Assembly: GCA_019114755.1 (NCBI GenBank)
Contig: DXEW01000027.1
Span: 1-35,562, forward strand
Direction of reading: 5' to 3'
Source of the DNA: Candidatus Borkfalkia faecavium
GTDB lineage: Bacteria; Bacillota; Clostridia; Christensenellales; Borkfalkiaceae
Length of the DNA stretch: 35,562 bases
In this document: piece by piece, positions 3,097-35,562 of the stretch
Layout of the letters: each line of letters opens with the position of its first letter
Position numbering within the stretch: position 1 is the first letter of the stretch
The notes under the pieces: model-generated
Seen by the model: only the letters and a program-made list of their open reading frames with translations
Told to the model about the DNA's origin: nothing
Databases searched by the model: none
Translations under genes and position numbers: made by a program

Positions 3097-4521
3097 ATGC
3101 AACAGAAAAAAACGAATAAATGGGTCAAGAGGATGGCGGCGGGGCTGCTCGTCTGCCTGCTGGCGCTGGTGCTCGCCTTTGCGGGCTGTGCGCCGCAGGG
3201 GCCGTATGTGGTGTCGGTGCGCCCCGGAAGTGACGGCGAGGTCATCGTCGAATATTCCGACGGCAGCATCACCACCATCGAAGCGGAGCAGCCCGCAGAC
3301 CCCGTGGGTGTAAAAGAGCTGTACGAGTACTATCAAGAGCTCTACGGCGAACTCTCGTACGAAGAGTTTTTGCGCATGTTCATCTCCGCCGATGAAGGCT
3401 TGACGGATACCGTCATCAACCGCGCGGCGCTCTCCTGCCTGCGCGTATACAGCGAGGCGCGCGAGACGGACGAAGAGGTGGAAGGCGGCAAAGACGTCAC
3501 CATCAGCATCGGTTCGGGCAGCATCTACCGCATGGAAGAGGAATACACCTATATCCTCACCAACTACCACGTTGCCCTGTGCGAGACCGCCAATGAAGAC
3601 AACGACGCCCCCGCCCCCGGCATCGGCCGCAAGCTGACGGCGTATATCTACGGCAGCGAATCTGTCCCCCAAAAGAATACCGAGGTCAAAGACGAGCTGG
3701 GCTACCCCACCTACGACTACGGCAAATACGCCATCGGCTGCGAGTATCTGGGCGGCGCGGTCTCGCTCGACGTCGCCGTGCTGCGCGCAAAAACGGCAGA
3801 CATCCTCGCCGTCAACCCGCAGGCGCGGGCGATCGAGTGGGCAGACGAGTACCACATCGGCGAAACGGCGTTCACCATCGGCAACGAAAACGGCAAAGAG
3901 ATGACCGCCACCCGCGGCATCCTCTCCGTCGAGCGCGAAGACGTCGATTTAGAGATCGGCGGCGTCACCCGCACCTACAGTCTGCTGCGTATGGATACGC
4001 CCATCTACGGCGGCAATTCGGGCGGCATCCTCTTCAATGCCGAAGGCAAGGCCATCGGCGTCTGCAATTCGGGCCGCACCAATATGGACAATATCAACTT
4101 CGCCGTTCCCCTCGCCACCGCCCAAAACGCGGCGGAAAACATCATCGATCATTTTTCGGAAGGCAGCGGCGGCGCCGTCAGCGTGTATAACGTCAGGCTG
4201 GGCGTGACGGTGGAAGAAAACAACGCCGTCTTCTCGTTCGACGAGTCTGCGGGCCACGGGCACGTCTATGCCGACGTCACCGTTTTGGAAGTGCAGGCGG
4301 GCTCCATCGCCGCGGCGGCGGGCGCGCAGGAGGGGGATATCATCCGCGCCGTCGTCGTAGACGGAGAGGAATATACCCTGCGCCGCGGCTACGAGATTGC
4401 CGATATCCTGCTGCAAGTGCGGGCGGGCAGCTCGCTGTCGCTGGTGCTGGAGCGAGGCGGCGAGCGCATAGAGGGCCGCAATTACACCGTCGCCGCCACC
4501 GACTTGCAGGTGGTGGAATAG
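3097..4521 (+). CDS. Trypsin-like serine protease/PDZ lipoprotein (HtrA-like), second paralogue
   Basis: The 474-residue protein is a paralogue of the gene at 1262 throughout. It has a lipobox ending FAGC (Cys31), the same YSDGS...ELYEYYQELYGELSYEEFL segment, and a trypsin-like domain with His158 (TNYHVA), Asp225 (SLDVAVL) and Ser308 (GGNSGGI). A C-terminal PDZ-like domain reads AGSIAAAAGAQEGDIIRAV. The open frame extends upstream to 2608, but that part crosses the repeat element and a promoter. The ATG at 3097 with AGAGG about ten bases upstream and an immediate signal peptide is the supported start. Tandem duplication followed by divergence is the simplest origin. Likely an extracytoplasmic protease; substrate unknown. 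Confidence 0.85.
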   Translation: MQQKKTNKWVKRMAAGLLVCLLALVLAFAGCAPQGPYVVSVRPGSDGEVIVEYSDGSITTIEAEQPADPVGVKELYEYYQELYGELSYEEFLRMFISADEGLTDTVINRAALSCLRVYSEARETDEEVEGGKDVTISIGSGSIYRMEEEYTYILTNYHVALCETANEDNDAPAPGIGRKLTAYIYGSESVPQKNTEVKDELGYPTYDYGKYAIGCEYLGGAVSLDVAVLRAKTADILAVNPQARAIEWADEYHIGETAFTIGNENGKEMTATRGILSVEREDVDLEIGGVTRTYSLLRMDTPIYGGNSGGILFNAEGKAIGVCNSGRTNMDNINFAVPLATAQNAAENIIDHFSEGSGGAVSVYNVRLGVTVEENNAVFSFDESAGHGHVYADVTVLEVQAGSIAAAAGAQEGDIIRAVVVDGEEYTLRRGYEIADILLQVRAGSSLSLVLERGGERIEGRNYTVAATDLQVVE

Positions 4522-4706: not shown

Positions 4707-4762
4707 GTTTTTTAAGATCTCGACGATTTGTTTTGTCGGTCCAAAATAAATTGTGAGAACTC

Positions 4763-7338: not shown

Positions 7339-7560
7339 GTTCTCACGATTTGTTTTGAGCTGACAAAAGAATTTTCCGTGAGGAAGGGGGAACCCTGCCG
7401 ATGCGCTCGTCGCGCCATTTTGCGCGCCGTGCTGGCGGCGGTTTCTCCCCTCTGCGCCGCGCATTGCAGGGCACACCATTTATAAAACGCGCGGCGCATT
7501 CACCTCCATCCGTATGCTCATAAGGGAAAAAAGGAAAAAGTGTCATTTTTCCTTTTTTGA
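7339..7560 (+). repeat. Multi-hairpin dispersed element, copy 2
   Basis: GTTCTCAC is followed by hairpin 1, an imperfect stem GATTTGTTTTG / CAAAAGAATTTTC (7347-7376). Hairpin 2 runs from GGGGGAACC (7386) to GGTTTCTCCCC (7450). Hairpin 3 has the perfect 10-bp stem TGCGCCGCGC / GCGCGGCGCA at 7453-7498, with conserved loop AGGGCACACCATTTATAAAAC. TTCACCTCCATCCGTATGCT then leads to hairpin 5, a perfect 13-bp A/T stem AAAAAAGGAAAAA / TTTTTCCTTTTTT at 7527-7558. It lacks the 280-nt RNA present in copies 6 and 8 between hairpins 1 and 2. Confidence 0.85.
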
Positions 7561-8076: not shown

Positions 8077-8163
8077 TTATCCTGAGCGAGCGAAGCGAGT
8101 CGAAGGATCTCTGAAAATAAAACAGTCCTCAATTCTACATTCTACATTTTACATTCTACATTT
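8077..8163. repeat. Dispersed ATCCTGAG palindrome plus heptamer array
   Basis: The palindrome ATCCTGAGCGAGCGAAGC...CGAAGGATCTC (8079-8112) is followed by ATTCTAC/ATTTTAC heptamers in tandem (8132-8163). The same two modules accompany other copies of the hairpin element (17187-17377 and, degenerate, 29839-29920), so they appear to be part of, or targets for, the same repeat complex. The rest of 8013-8243 holds no gene. Confidence 0.7.
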
Positions 8164-8243
8164 GAAAGAGCCCCGTTCGACTGCACGGGTGCAACTGTGC
8201 TGACCCGCTAAAAAACTATTTCATTTACTATTATAAACATCGT

Positions 8244-18922: not shown

Positions 18923-19385
18923 GCCCCGCGCCCCCTGTTCCGCGCGCCGCCCCGCGCCCGCAGGGTGCGCGGCATTCTGCGGTACAGTATATCTATGCGC
19001 GCGCGGTAAAAAATAGACGCTTTTGTCGAACGGCGGAAAGTTTGCTCGGAAAGGTCCCCGCGGCGAGGGCGTTTTGGCGAGCCCCGCAAAGGGGCGGCGA
19101 TGGCTCTTTGGCTGCCCCGCGGGCGCGTCCGATAGGGTCGTTCGTTTTGCCCGGCAGGCCACCGCGGGCGCGTCCGCCAGGGCTTCTTTTTTGCGGGGAA
19201 AGGGGCAAAGACGCGGCGGGGGTGTTTTGGCAAACCCCGCGGGCGCGTCCGATAGGGTCGTTCGTTTTGCCCGGCAGGCCACCGCGGGCGCGTCCGACAG
19301 GGCGCCCTTGTTGCGGCGAAAGGGGGCAAAATGTTTGCCTTTGCCGCCTTGGCGGCAGGAATGTGCGCAAATGGCAGAAAAATAA
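18923..19385. other. Gene-free GC-rich spacer with tandem repeat
   Basis: Long open frames cross this stretch on both strands, but the translations are repeats of GRARG/PGKTNDP-like peptides with no ribosome-binding site. They reflect the tandem repeat at 19115-19296. I see no real gene or RNA. Confidence 0.5.
19115..19296. repeat. 120-bp period direct repeat
   Basis: A 62-base block at 19115-19176 recurs exactly at 19235-19296. Within each block CGCGGGCGCGTCCG occurs twice, giving four copies of that core at roughly 45- and 75-base spacing. Confidence 0.85.
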
Positions 19386-25972: not shown

Positions 25973-26476
25973 ATGGCTAAATACAAAAAGTGCCCCAGAT
26001 GTGAACTCAACTACATCGAAGAGGATAAAGACTACTGCGACGTGTGCCTTGCCGAAATGCAGGGCGGCAAGCTGAAATTTGCCGACCTCGACGATGAAGA
26101 CGACGAGATCGAAAAGACCGAGCTCTGCCCCGTCTGCGGCGAAAACTATATGCGCCCCGGCGAAAAGATGTGCGACGAGTGCAAGCAGCACGCCGCCGAG
26201 TACGACCAGGAAGAAGAGGTCGACCCCGAAAAGGACGAAGCCTGGCGCGATTACCTCGACGAAGAGGCGGACGATCTGACCATGGAGAGCGACGCCATCG
26301 ACATCGGCGACGACTTCATCGACGACTTCGACGACGAAGAATTTGCCGACGGCTATGTGGAAGAGGAAGACTCTTCCGACGACGACGAAGCGGACGACTT
26401 TGCCGACGACTTCACCGACCTCGACGACGACGATGACGACGACGACGAGGATGAAGACGAAGAGGATGATTTTTAG
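25973..26476 (+). CDS. Double zinc-ribbon protein with poly-acidic tail
   Basis: The 167-residue protein opens with two four-cysteine knuckles: CPRC and CDVC at about residues 8-27, then CPVC and CDEC at about 52-70. Each could hold one zinc. From residue 78 to the end the chain is almost entirely Asp/Glu, finishing in a run of Asp and Glu. Small zinc-ribbon proteins with acidic tails can mimic nucleic acid or bind basic proteins, but no function is established here. GAGGTGG lies six bases before the ATG and a strong promoter is upstream. The gene ends six bases before a GTTCAC and 20 before hairpin element copy 6. Confidence 0.75.
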   Translation: MAKYKKCPRCELNYIEEDKDYCDVCLAEMQGGKLKFADLDDEDDEIEKTELCPVCGENYMRPGEKMCDECKQHAAEYDQEEEVDPEKDEAWRDYLDEEADDLTMESDAIDIGDDFIDDFDDEEFADGYVEEEDSSDDDEADDFADDFTDLDDDDDDDDEDEDEEDDF

Positions 26477-26495
26477 AAAATGTTCACACAAATAA

Positions 26496-26994
26496 GTTCA
26501 CACTTTTTCTTTCGTGCTGACGAAAGAAATTGTCGAGATAAACCAAGCCAAAGCAAGAAGACCCCGCCCTGAAAGGCGACTTTTGCGCGCCTTGGGGCTC
26601 ATCCTCATTGCAATACGTAGGTATTGCTGCTTCGTCTATCGCCCCAATCCATCGCAAAATGCGCTCTTTCAGGGTGCGGAGCAATCGCAAGCGGGTAAAT
26701 TGCCGCAGATGCAAGGCAAAGCCCGCAGGTAATATAGAGACATATTACCAAGGGCTTTAACGATGCAGATGTGGTGAGATACCCGCTTCCGATCGGGGGC
26801 TCTTTGCTTTGGCTTGGTTAAGGGGGAGACCTGTTGTTCACCGCCTTTGGCGGCTCTGCAACGGTTTCTCCCCTCTTTTTTTGCCGTTTAGGGGCTCACG
26901 TTTTATAAACGGCAAAAAAATTCACCTCCATCCGTATGCTCATAAGGGAAAAGAGGCAAAAGTGTGATTTTGCCTCTTTTTGAGTATTTGTATG
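26496..26994 (+). repeat. Multi-hairpin dispersed element, copy 6, containing a candidate RNA
   Basis: GTTCACAC (with another GTTCAC at 26482) is followed by hairpin 1, TTTCTTTCG/CGAAAGAAA at 26506-26529 with loop TGCTGA. The 279-nt candidate RNA sits at 26541-26819. Hairpin 2 runs from GGGGGAGACC (26822) to GGTTTCTCCCC (26873) with inner CCGCC-ttt-GGCGG. Hairpin 3 is a perfect 14-bp stem TTTTTTTGCCGTTT / AAACGGCAAAAAAA (26876-26920) around AGGGGCTCACG. After TTCACCTCCATCCGTATGCT comes hairpin 5, AAAAGAGGCAAAA / TTTTGCCTCTTTT (26949-26980), then TGAGTATTTGTATGG. Confidence 0.85.
26541..26819 (+). ncRNA. Candidate structured RNA, copy A (unrecognised class)
   Basis: A 279-nt sequence is closed by a perfect 16-bp stem, AACCAAGCCAAAGCAA with TTGCTTTGGCTTGGTT. 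One arm is CCCTGAAAG (26567) with CTTTCAGGG (26666), enclosing GGCG/CGCC, then TTGGGGC/GCCCCAA (26592/26641) and hairpin GCAATAC/GTATTGC (26610/26621). The second arm is AAGCGGGTA (26689) with TACCCGCTT (26780), extended past one mismatch by ATCG/CGAT. It encloses CCGCA/TGTGG, AAAGCCC/GGGCTTT (26718/26752) and GGTAATAT/ATATTACC (26728/26742). No open frame of note spans it. It lacks the conserved cores I know for RNase P, tmRNA, SRP, 6S or group I/II introns. A near-identical copy lies at 35227. Confidence 0.75.
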
Positions 26995-27290
26995 GAATAA
27001 AAATGCCGCGGCTTCACCTTTCCTGCAAAAGCCGCAGGTATGCGGCAAATGGAGTGCGCTTACCGAAAGGCGCGGCTTTCGGACGCGCAGAAATTGTTTG
27101 TAAAAGGAAAGCGTCGTTTTGCCTCTTTTTGAATATTTGTATGGAATAAAAATGCCGCGGCTTCACCTTTCCTGCAAAAGCCGCAGGTATGCGGCAAATG
27201 GAGTGCGCTTACCGAAAGGCGCGGCTTTCGGACGCGCAGAAATTGTTTGTAAAAGGAAAAAACGGCAAAAGTGTGATTTTGCCGTTTTTT
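26985..27290 (+). repeat. 149-bp tandem duplication of the distal half of the hairpin element
   Basis: The unit TATTTGTATGGAATAAAAAT through GTAAAAGGAAA begins at 26985 and again at 27134. Each contains GCGGCTTCACC...AAGCCGC and a GTAAAAGGAAA end. The first unit ends in an asymmetric GCGTCGTTTTGCCTC segment, the second in a perfect 14-bp hairpin AAAAAACGGCAAAA / TTTTGCCGTTTTTT (27257-27290, loop GTGTGA). The whole interval 26477-27435 holds no protein gene. Confidence 0.85.
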
Positions 27291-27315
27291 AAGTATTTGT
27301 TTTAAATCTCCCTCA

Positions 27316-27347
27316 ATTTTACATTTTACATTCTACATTTTACATTT
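27316..27347. repeat. Heptamer array
   Basis: ATTTTAC and ATTCTAC units in tandem, preceded by CCTCA as in other arrays at 8127 and 34149. Confidence 0.75.
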
Positions 27348-27414
27348 CCGCGCGGCGCGTGCGCGCGCGGCGTGGGCCGAGCGCCGCGGCGGACTACATT
27401 CGGCTCCGCTTGTA

Positions 27415-27453
27415 TGTCAAAAAAGGCGTGCCCCTCTACCGCGAGGGGCACAC
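27415..27453 (-). terminator. veg terminator overlapping the end of the gene
   Basis: On the minus strand GTGCCCCTC pairs with GAGGGGCAC around a 6-base loop (27428-27451), followed by CGCCTTTTTTG. The stop codon of veg lies within the hairpin. Confidence 0.8.
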
Positions 27454-27684
27454 CTTTACCGAAACGCTGCCGCAGACCACTTCTGCGTACGAATACGCCG
27501 TCTTGCCGCGGTAGGCGGCGTCGTCGGGCAGAACGGTGAACAGGGCGGGGTACACGCCCGAAAGTTTGCCCGTAAAGTCGGCGTATTTGTTGCGGCCGAG
27601 GCACACGTGCACGCGCACGCGGCGGTCGGCGTAGCGGCGGATCTCTTCTTTTACGGTGCGCAAATCGTTGGCGGTGCGGATCAT
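27436..27684 (-). CDS. veg: Veg family protein
   Basis: The 82-residue protein reads MIRTANDLRTVKEEIRRYAD, then VHVCLGRNKYADFTGKLSGVYPALFTV and AYSYAEVVCGSVSVKV. The order 'GRKK...GxLxxxYPxxFxV...SYsDvLT' is that of the Veg/DUF1021 family, small basic SH3-like proteins of Bacillota; Bacillus Veg influences biofilm gene expression. Length is typical. GGAGGAAA precedes the ATG at 27684. The last residues are encoded in the terminator stem. Confidence 0.88.
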   Translation of the reverse strand: MIRTANDLRTVKEEIRRYADRRVRVHVCLGRNKYADFTGKLSGVYPALFTVLPDDAAYRGKTAYSYAEVVCGSVSVKVCPSR

Positions 27685-28051
27685 GGCATTTTCCTCCGGG
27701 CGGCAGAATGCCGCAACCCTATTATGGCACAGGCGCGGGGCAAATATACCTCTGCCGTCCGCCGTTTTCAAAAACGGTGCGCATTCCCGCCGGATCACGG
27801 GGGTATTTCCGCCGCGTTTTTCTTTTTTATAGAAAGGGAACAGAAAGGATCGCCGGGCTCTTTTCGCTTTGCCGTGGTCTTCCTGTCAAAATAAAAAGAA
27901 AAAACGTTTACAACAAAGCAGGCAGCTCGCGCCGACTTCGCCGCACCCTTCTTTCCAAAAGAAAAACAGAAAGCGTTTACAACAAAGCAGGCATGGCGGG
28001 CGGGGGGCGCGGCATACAATAGGGTGTAATGCTTCATGGTCGGAGGTGCGT
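27685..28051. other. Spacer with a repeated 20-mer between veg and the SPOCS gene
   Basis: CGTTTACAACAAAGCAGGCA occurs at 27905-27924 and 27974-27993, 69 bases apart, each preceded by an A-rich stretch. GCATACAATAGGG at 28013 offers a possible -10 box (TACAAT) but no good -35. No gene is supported in this interval. Confidence 0.5.
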
Positions 28052-34112: not shown

Positions 34113-34185
34113 GATTGCGGATAAGTAGAAAGATATAGTTTACCTATCCTCAATTTTACATTCTACATTCTACATTCTACATTTA
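34101..34185. repeat. Inverted heptamer arrays after ogt
   Basis: A short array GGTAAAATGTAGGATTG at 34101 faces a longer one, ATTTTAC followed by three ATTCTAC units, at 34153-34185. CCTCAA precedes the second, as in other arrays. The two are inverted relative to each other, as at 823/898. Confidence 0.75.
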
Positions 34186-34278
34186 TCATTTGTAAAGCGG
34201 TCCCGAACAAGGCAAAAAAATCTTTCTTTCCCTTCAAAAAACCTGGCAGGCGGGCTGGAAACGCCCGCTTTTGTGTGG

Positions 34279-34846: not shown

Positions 34847-34884
34847 GCGCCGCCGCGCAAAGTTTTGCGCGGCGGCGCTTTTTT
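34847..34884 (+). terminator. Terminator after the 34324 gene
   Basis: A 15-bp perfect stem GCGCCGCCGCGCAAA / TTTGCGCGGCGGCGC with loop GT is followed by six T residues. GTTCAC of a truncated hairpin element starts at the end of the T-run. Confidence 0.9.
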
Positions 34885-34950
34885 GTTCACGCGTTCCTCG
34901 GCGCGAAGTTCTCACAATTTCTTTCGAGCTGACGAAAGAAATTGTCGAGA
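34885..34950 (+). repeat. Truncated hairpin elements, one abutting another
   Basis: GTTCACGCGTTCCTCGGCG (34885-34903) is the left half of hairpin 1 as in copy 3, cut off where GCGAAGTTCTCAC begins. The second piece has the perfect 13-bp hairpin 1 ACAATTTCTTTCG / CGAAAGAAATTGT (34914-34945, loop AGCTGA), then CGAGAGAAAGGGGACG. This matches the flank of the copy at 35176 without its 283-nt RNA. The 49 bases at 34902-34950 equal 35176-35224 with one mismatch. Confidence 0.8.
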
Positions 34951-34969
34951 GAAAGGGGACGCCGTGCGG

Positions 34970-35143: not shown

Positions 35144-35175
35144 GATATCTCCTGTGTTTTTTACGCAATTTTCGC

Positions 35176-35562
35176 CGCGAAGTTCTCACAATTTCTTTCG
35201 TGCTGACGAAAGAAATTGTCGAGATAAACCAAGCCAAAGCAAGAAGACCCCGCCCTGAAAGGCGCCTTTTGCGCGCCTTGGGGCTCATCCTCATTGCAAT
35301 ACCACAGTGGGTATTGCTGCTTCGTCTATCGCCCCAATCCATCGCAAAATGCGCTCTTTCAGGGTGCGAAGCAATCGCAAGCGGGTGGATTGCCGCAGAT
35401 GCAAGGCAAAGCCCGCAGGTAATATAGAGACATATTGCCAAGGGCTTTAACGATGCAGATGTGGTGAGATGCCCGCTTCCGATCGGGGTCTCTTTGCTTT
35501 GGCTTGGTTAAGGGGGAAACCTGCCGTGCGCGCGGCTATGCCGTGCTGGCGGCGGTTTCTCC
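35176..35562 (+). repeat. Multi-hairpin dispersed element, copy 8, containing a candidate RNA (cut by window end)
   Basis: GCGAAGTTCTCAC is followed by the perfect 13-bp hairpin 1 ACAATTTCTTTCG / CGAAAGAAATTGT (loop TGCTGA), GTCGAGATAA, the candidate RNA at 35227-35509 and AAGGGGGAAACC. Hairpin 2 begins there (GGGGGAAACC...GGTTTCTCC) and is interrupted by the end of the window, so hairpins 3 and 5 are not visible. Confidence 0.85.
35227..35509 (+). ncRNA. Candidate structured RNA, copy B (unrecognised class)
   Basis: This 283-nt copy matches 26541-26819 apart from about eight substitutions and a 4-nt change in one loop. The 16-bp closing stem is identical. Changes fit pairing: the apical hairpin GCAATAC gains a C-G pair (GCAATACC/GGTATTGC); U-A and A-U pairs of the second arm become U-G and G-U (35386/35471 and 35387/35470); GGTAATAT/ATATTACC becomes ATATTGCC, with a G-U. 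Near the closing stem, A-G in copy A is A-U here, giving AGACCCC/GGGGTCT. GGCGA/GCGCC becomes GGCGC/GCGCC. Copy B is the better-paired version. Confidence 0.75.

Follow-up and report, generated by a model that had tools for sequence, protein, structure and literature searches.

A two-arm foldback of Candidatus Borkfalkia faecavium as a probable copy of a MITE-like mobile element family of Clostridia

The contig DXEW01000027.1 of Candidatus Borkfalkia faecavium (assembly GCA_019114755.1), analysed over its whole 35,562 nt and called the window below, contains a 279-nt foldback that very probably belongs to a family of non-autonomous mobile elements in Clostridia, similar to miniature inverted-repeat transposable elements (MITEs). 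Terminal inverted repeats, dispersed non-coding copies and orthologous empty sites, three features expected of MITEs, were all found. The foldback would be an element of the MITE or BOX kind, unusual in the depth of its fold conservation and in the turnover of its terminal repeats. The initial annotation had proposed an unrecognised structured RNA; the conserved fold without an Rfam match stands, but the framing as one RNA does not, since the sequence is a mobile element copy with terminal inverted repeats. The element is laid out in the window as follows.

26541..26819, + strand (the strand with arm 1 first): element copy 1, the 279-nt foldback itself
26541..26558, + strand: left terminal inverted repeat, pairs with 26801-26819
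26564..26677, + strand: arm 1, a stem with internal loops (TCATCCTC / CTTCGTC) and the tip GCAATAC/GTATTGC; region of model R1
26683..26794, + strand: arm 2, a stem with internal loops (GGCAAAGCCCGCAG / GGGCTTTAACG) and the tip GGTAATAT/ATATTACC; region of model R2
26801..26819, - strand: right terminal inverted repeat, pairs with the left end 26541..26558
35227..35509, + strand: element copy 2, 283 nt, 96% identical to copy 1, flanks included

The coordinates and the closing stem reported by the initial annotation were confirmed exactly. The outer stem pairs AACCAAGCCAAAGCAA (26541-26556) with TTGCTTTGGCTTGGTT (26804-26819) in 16 perfect base pairs, and the inverted repeat extends with mismatches to 33 nt at 82% identity. 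All five stems that had been named for the two branched arms are present in the minimum-energy fold of positions 26521-26840 (-151.3 kcal/mol, compared with -101.0 +/- 5.2 in shuffled sequences; z -9.74, 0 of 100 shuffles equal it). The second copy that had been noted in the window is also there. The sequence had been described as non-coding, and indeed six-frame translations of 15 elements contain no shared reading frame; indels of 1, 2 and 4 nt distinguish the copies, and the position of open frames changes between them. A coding sequence was therefore ruled out.

Dispersed copies, ends and empty sites

The element is a dispersed repeat and not a single-copy RNA gene. The genome is an incomplete metagenome-assembled genome (MAG) of 1,728,480 bases (1.73 Mb) in 38 contigs; blastn yields 27 matches in it, eight of them near full length, the others being fragments, contig-end pieces or opposite-strand terminal repeats. 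The terminal motif AACCAAGYCAAARYAA occurs 53 times with at most two mismatches, compared with four times for the reversed control, and pairs of it also delimit short forms of 38-99 bp. If the ends of copy 1 are taken as ACC...GGT, TA follows the right end (26819-26820) and AA precedes the left one. Twelve copies of its own class were read, and TA follows GGT in all of them. Most copies read adjoin a TA or AT dinucleotide.

The element moves or has moved, as orthologous sites exist without it. At one locus (L129), three MAGs carry it with a TetR-type gene (PF00440) on one side and an apparent ABC transporter gene on the other. The flanks were joined without the element and searched against 81 genomes of that genus, of which eight matched. 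Genome G276 aligns in one piece and without a gap over the join (217 of 298 positions identical) and thus has the unoccupied orthologous site. Two carrier genomes match in two pieces, and the remaining ones match on one side or in short stretches only. In a second genome (G279, locus L184), the flank pieces are 115 nt apart, compared with 110 in the element-free query. The gapless join fits the removal of TACTG...CAGTA (275 nt), that is, ACTG...CAGT together with a duplicated AT.

Another copy in the Candidatus Borkfalkia faecavium genome (L008, C9:33422-33702) lies between the genes of ribosomal proteins S10 (PF00338) and L3 (PF00297), and so a transcript spanning both must run through the fold. 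A search of 40 genomes of the genus matched 37, the carrier itself among them: 28 genus-mates aligned have the S10-L3 spacer without the element, and eight genomes matched in two separated pieces, one of which was read and looks like an unrelated spacer. A further copy (L110) interrupts a gene, which we take to encode an ABC-F type ATPase.

The elements fall into size classes of about 280, 390 and 510 nt, plus the short forms. Among 165 terminal-repeat pairs from all collected loci (near-duplicate registers counted apart), 121 are at 260-289 nt, 19 at 370-399 nt, five at 500-559 nt and five above 650 nt. The last group comes from three loci: L102 is two neighbouring elements, L255 has a short and a full copy flanking a phosphoesterase-like gene, and none of the open reading frames (ORFs) of L095, read by eye, looks like a transposase. 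Growth occurs by nesting and by extra arm modules. Two MAGs have a 275-nt form at the L129 site and the third has a 385-nt form at the same orthologous site; thus an arm module of about 110 nt was gained or lost in place. In a nested form of 550 nt (C32:18373-18922 of the Candidatus Borkfalkia faecavium genome), an element with another terminal repeat (TACTGTAAGG...) lies inside arm 2, and larger nested forms reach 623 nt.

Distribution and conservation of the two-arm fold

The exact arm-1 pattern was found in 56 stretches of GTDB species genomes, all belonging to uncultured Clostridia bacterium, Candidatus Gallimonas gallistercoris or Candidatus Coproplasma stercoripullorum. It was found in no stretch of IMG/VR, and blastn of phage and plasmid records gave no match at E 1e-5; a viral or plasmid origin was rejected on these grounds. 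Model R1, which represents arm 1, matches 71 of 398 genomes of the same family (8 of 18 genera). In a sample of the class, four of 391 genomes match, namely the carrier itself and three of one distant family. Model R3, with arms from this distant family, matches 13 of its 16 genomes, with at most 36 matches per genome, and four of 398 genomes in a sample of the phylum: again the carrier, one genome each in two further families of the class (five and two matches), and one weak match, to genome G1090 (E 2.1e-4), which lacks the two-arm layout and was not counted as a relative. The class and phylum scans were samples with strict filters, and so their counts are lower bounds. In three genomes of family f22 (G763, G678, G622), many arm-1 matches begin at one of the first five positions of a contig, as though assemblies were broken by the element; it may serve as a marker for repeats where assemblies of these bacteria seem to break. 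The titles and abstracts of the literature found contain no description of the element; supplements and subscription papers were outside this search.

Alignment A1 consists of 15 elements with ends set by eye. A6 contains 21 elements of the same family found with R1, R2 or separately, in a MAFFT alignment not fitted to structure; its rows are 20 non-redundant elements (from 56) without L046, L117, L113 and L101 and with five added (window position 26539, L030, L008, L097, L144). A8 contains 28 elements, 17 of them from other families. For the latter, 30 loci were read and ends were set in 19, of which L237 and L245 were dropped; the 11 loci left out resembled kept rows, were truncated at the end of a contig, had no clear ends or came from G1090.

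The initial annotation had proposed to abandon its structured RNA if paired positions varied independently among homologues. They do not: in A6, 95.8% of 1864 cells are paired, and changes on both sides occur in 58 of 89 pairs, compared with 37.2 expected from shuffles. The covariation score is 0.471 (0.180 +/- 0.008 in shuffled and at most 0.095 in slid alignments), and the consensus fold has -104.6 kcal/mol as opposed to -3.9 +/- 2.7 in fifty column shuffles. Since the homologues keep pairing while both sides change and Rfam has no match, an unrecognised conserved fold is supported.

Other families of the class retain the two-arm fold, though the letters of the outer repeats and stems have been replaced. 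When the A6 structure is mapped on the 17 elements of other families, 1200 of 1478 cells are paired (81%; 31-54% when slid). The search model contains arm 1 and not arm 2; for arm 2 alone the fraction is 468 of 602 (78%; 36-54% when slid). In A8, changes are double-sided in 78 of 89 pairs, compared with 58.8 in shuffles, and the covariation score is 0.546, compared with 0.194 in shuffled and at most 0.170 in slid alignments; the outer-stem part of this score is partly circular, as the outer ends of the 17 elements were chosen by complementarity. In the distant elements the terminal repeats are different (e.g. TAGCCGAAAG..., TAGCCTGACAGG..., TAGGCAAAGCC...) and both arms recur. One two-arm design can be traced from the Candidatus Borkfalkia faecavium family into three other families of this class; its stems have been rewritten and its terminal repeats exchanged, the internal loops have been maintained, and extra arms have been gained in place. 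Small palindromic repeats of bacteria have mostly been described from single species or genera.

Conservation is not limited to the stems. Unpaired arm columns are about as conserved as paired ones, both in the same family (0.83 and 0.82) and in all families (0.69 and 0.70). Families share the pyrimidine-rich loop of arm 1 (TCNTCNTC opposite TCNTC), the GGCAAA / TTTAACG of arm 2 and the asymmetric layout of the two arms. Kept loops and kept layout argue that something reads the fold. The arm-1 loop pattern looks like a recognition feature, together with the G-U pair closing the base of arm 1, which is found in 28 of 28 elements of A8 and, being invariant, is no test of covariation. In the arm-1 internal loop (A7, A8), T and C are kept and every third base is free.

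Possible roles of the fold and mobilisation

Folding of the + strand as RNA would be expected to leave half-changed pairs as G-U and not as A-C. In the arms, the RNAalifold structure gives a GT:AC count of 45:6 favouring +, which becomes 20:20 on the other-strand structure; for all families, 65:5 on the + structure becomes 14:39 on the - structure. Since the count flips with the structure chosen, this choice biases it, and pairs were selected by a strand-neutral rule that treats both strands alike. Counts at mostly paired positions of a model-fitted alignment (108:18 in arm 2, 18:17 in arm 1) were set aside as structure-biased. The strand-neutral counts on the read strand, for A6 and A8 respectively, are 15:4 and 20:2 in arm 2, 2:3 and 7:8 in arm 1, and 8:14 and 32:30 in the outer stem. 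Thus the outer stem behaves like a repeat in duplex DNA and arm 2 like a single-strand fold, whereas arm 1 is silent.

An RNA function is possible. A functional structured RNA could be carried by the mobile element, with the transcribed + strand folding and acting, e.g. as a cofactor of mobilisation or in the protection or processing of the host mRNA into which it has inserted. Such a role is compatible with a MITE-like element, and we consider it a possibility well short of probable. It agrees with double-sided changes across families, with the wobble excess of arm 2 on the read strand and with the equal conservation of unpaired and paired arm columns; the constant G-U pair of arm 1 would fit too, had a pair that never varies any power as a test. 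The consensus of the same family is stronger on + than on - (-104.6 and -88.9 kcal/mol), and 12 of 16 single copies fold better on +. However, arm 1 and the outer stem have no strand preference, and the two strands are nearly equal in fold energy when all families are combined (-49.6 on + and -51.3 on -). Orientation is mixed as well: among 53 elements, the downstream gene is on + in 27 cases and on - in 17, and the upstream gene in 16 and 26, as judged from rough gene calls with known errors (the ribosomal gene beside L008 was missed). Finally, there are no promoter-like sites in 26450-26950. The same interval has three terminator-like sites (0.6 expected), all inside the stems of the element itself, and both a promoter and a terminator were rejected. 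An explanation that needs no selection is also compatible with a MITE-like element: template switching in replication may keep long palindromes perfect, the fold being a by-product. PMC8794818 describes how template switching can introduce matching changes on the two sides of a hairpin. It can thus imitate covariation, which makes covariation weaker proof of selection here than usual. The near absence of half-changed pairs from arm 1 in the same family (GT 2 and AC 3 of 754 cells), as if both sides change together, is what this process would leave. On the other hand, it does not account for unpaired arm columns conserved as well as stems, for an asymmetric two-arm layout that persists between families, or for the wobble asymmetry of arm 2, and as the whole explanation we regard it as rather unlikely.

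The remaining alternatives concern ordinary RNAs. A cis-regulatory leader of the riboswitch or attenuator type is suggested by the L129 copy, which lies between a promoter-like sequence TTGACA-17-TACAAT and the ribosome-binding site of the ABC-transporter-like gene. However, orthologous sites without the element exist, and the contexts vary from copy to copy and include both orientations and the S10-L3 spacer. Copy 1 itself sits between convergent genes. As the initial annotation had recognised, these encode an acidic double-zinc-ribbon-like protein (25973-26476; PF12773, E 9.8e-5, 22.9 bits, under the cut-off of 27.3) and VEG (27436-27690, minus strand; PF06257, E 8.4e-12). This scatter of contexts already contradicts a leader, which is very unlikely. 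A known family missed by eye (RNase P, tmRNA, SRP, 6S, self-splicing introns, large Clostridia RNAs) would fit in size and complexity. The scan with Rfam 15, however, agreed with the initial annotation, giving no match at the gathering score in the whole window, 11 matches at 20 loci with relatives, all of them tRNAs, and in a lax scan of copy 1 (E up to 10) two hits, the best with E 1.4; the probability of this alternative is negligible.

Returning to the MITE-like element, a DNA transposase supplied in trans may cut at the terminal repeats and join at TA/AT, as proposed for other MITEs. Inserted into a transcribed region, the element would become part of host mRNAs, as some BOX elements do (PMC3049150). 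We lean towards the view that the arms are kept because the element would fold as a single strand at some step, as a transcript or as single-stranded DNA, and not only by mending of the palindrome. A stronger version, that elements throughout the class are kept by shape, with fixed-loop arms read as RNA or single-stranded DNA by the mobilising protein and with ends and stems free as long as they pair, is improbable; if true, the identity of such a transposon would lie in its fold more than in its end sequence. In either case the family would allow a test of whether a mobile element is preserved by its fold, and it bears on whether covariation alone proves RNA function.

Several observations weigh against a transposase-driven MITE with a conserved fold. 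Neither PF13358 (DDE_3) nor PF13340 (DUF4096) matches any of the 15 carrier genomes of the same family, the search being limited to these two transposase families and to this family of genomes. In 14 control genomes, PF13358 matches three, two of them above the cut-off, and PF13340 matches five. A matching transposase in the host would be expected of MITEs derived from IS630/Tc1-mariner (PF13358) and from the IS427-like group of the IS5 family, which targets TA (PF13340); neither domain was found in these 15 carriers. A search by end spacing found no autonomous partner for one terminal-repeat subfamily in eight genomes, none for the class of copy 1 in its own incomplete genome, and none among the collected loci, where three loci with wide pairs were judged by reading their ORFs. 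The left flank is TA in only six of the 12 copies of this class that were read, and AA in the other six; among 19 elements of other families, read by eye, TA is at both ends in eight, at one end in eight and at neither in three. The duplication of a dinucleotide depends on one gapless empty site (AT, G276), outside the class of copy 1. The outermost letters differ between subfamilies more than the inner ones, which is unusual for tips recognised by a transposase. As for the fold, the covariation figures and shuffles ignore relatedness, and the elements were found with models containing the fold. One of the five measures in A6 is weak, with 104 further pair types compared with 97.7 in shuffles and reached by 22 of 500 of them.

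The closest known systems were compared by description rather than by sequence. BOX elements of Streptococcus pneumoniae are intergenic, have a strong predicted fold if transcribed, contain boxB in no or multiple copies and are judged parasitic; some are transcribed together with their neighbours (PMC3049150). The element described here is likewise intergenic, folded and built of modular repeats. In contrast to BOX, its modules are branched arms of about 110 nt, its fold is kept between bacterial families with the letters replaced, and its terminal repeats have been swapped between subfamilies. RUP of S. pneumoniae and other MITEs are thought to be moved by IS630-type transposases (PMC3049150). 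They too are small, with terminal inverted repeats and no internal transposase, and the two-base TA/AT flank is a further likeness; unlike for these, DDE_3 is absent from the 15 carrier genomes. Correia, ERIC and BIME are also dispersed folded repeats, able to alter host mRNA when co-transcribed, and none is described, in the background passages that name them, as a two-arm fold kept between families (PMC3049150).

Single-strand transposition offers another comparison. IS200/IS605-type elements move as single strands; if the mobilising enzyme recognises a folded single strand, a fold specific to one strand would result. Such elements are not known to have terminal inverted repeats or to duplicate a dinucleotide.

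Other repeats in the window

A dispersed hairpin repeat adjoins both element copies of the window.

26494..26540, + strand: dispersed hairpin repeat (..TTTCTTTCGTGCTGACGAAAGAAATTGTCGAGATA) abutting the 5' side of copy 1; found likewise 5' of copy 2 (35180-35226), and at 34878-34954 with no element behind it

A hairpin repeat TTTCTTTCG..GCTGACGAAAGAAATTGTCGAGA is found at 4717-4761 (- strand), 34878-34954, 35152-35228 and 26466-26542; the element stands behind it twice, and elsewhere (e.g. at 34878-34954) it occurs without the element. A further dispersed repeat, CACCTCCATCCGTATGCTCATAAGGG... followed by a hairpin, is at 7498-7558, 26920-26980 and 2924-2984 and at the genomic copies L003 and L006; two element copies appear to have landed in it.

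Downstream of copy 1, a 149-bp intergenic unit is duplicated head-to-tail (26959-27107 and 27108-27256, 97% identical). An AT-rich repeat with CTACATTTTACATT-like units occurs in four places (886-927, 8126-8167, 27310-27351, 34147-34188), and a GC-rich 91-bp direct repeat is at 19115-19205 and 19235-19325 (93% identical, 120 bp apart). Finally, two 62-nt stretches, 1658-1719 and 3511-3572, are 89% identical and perhaps belong to two related genes.
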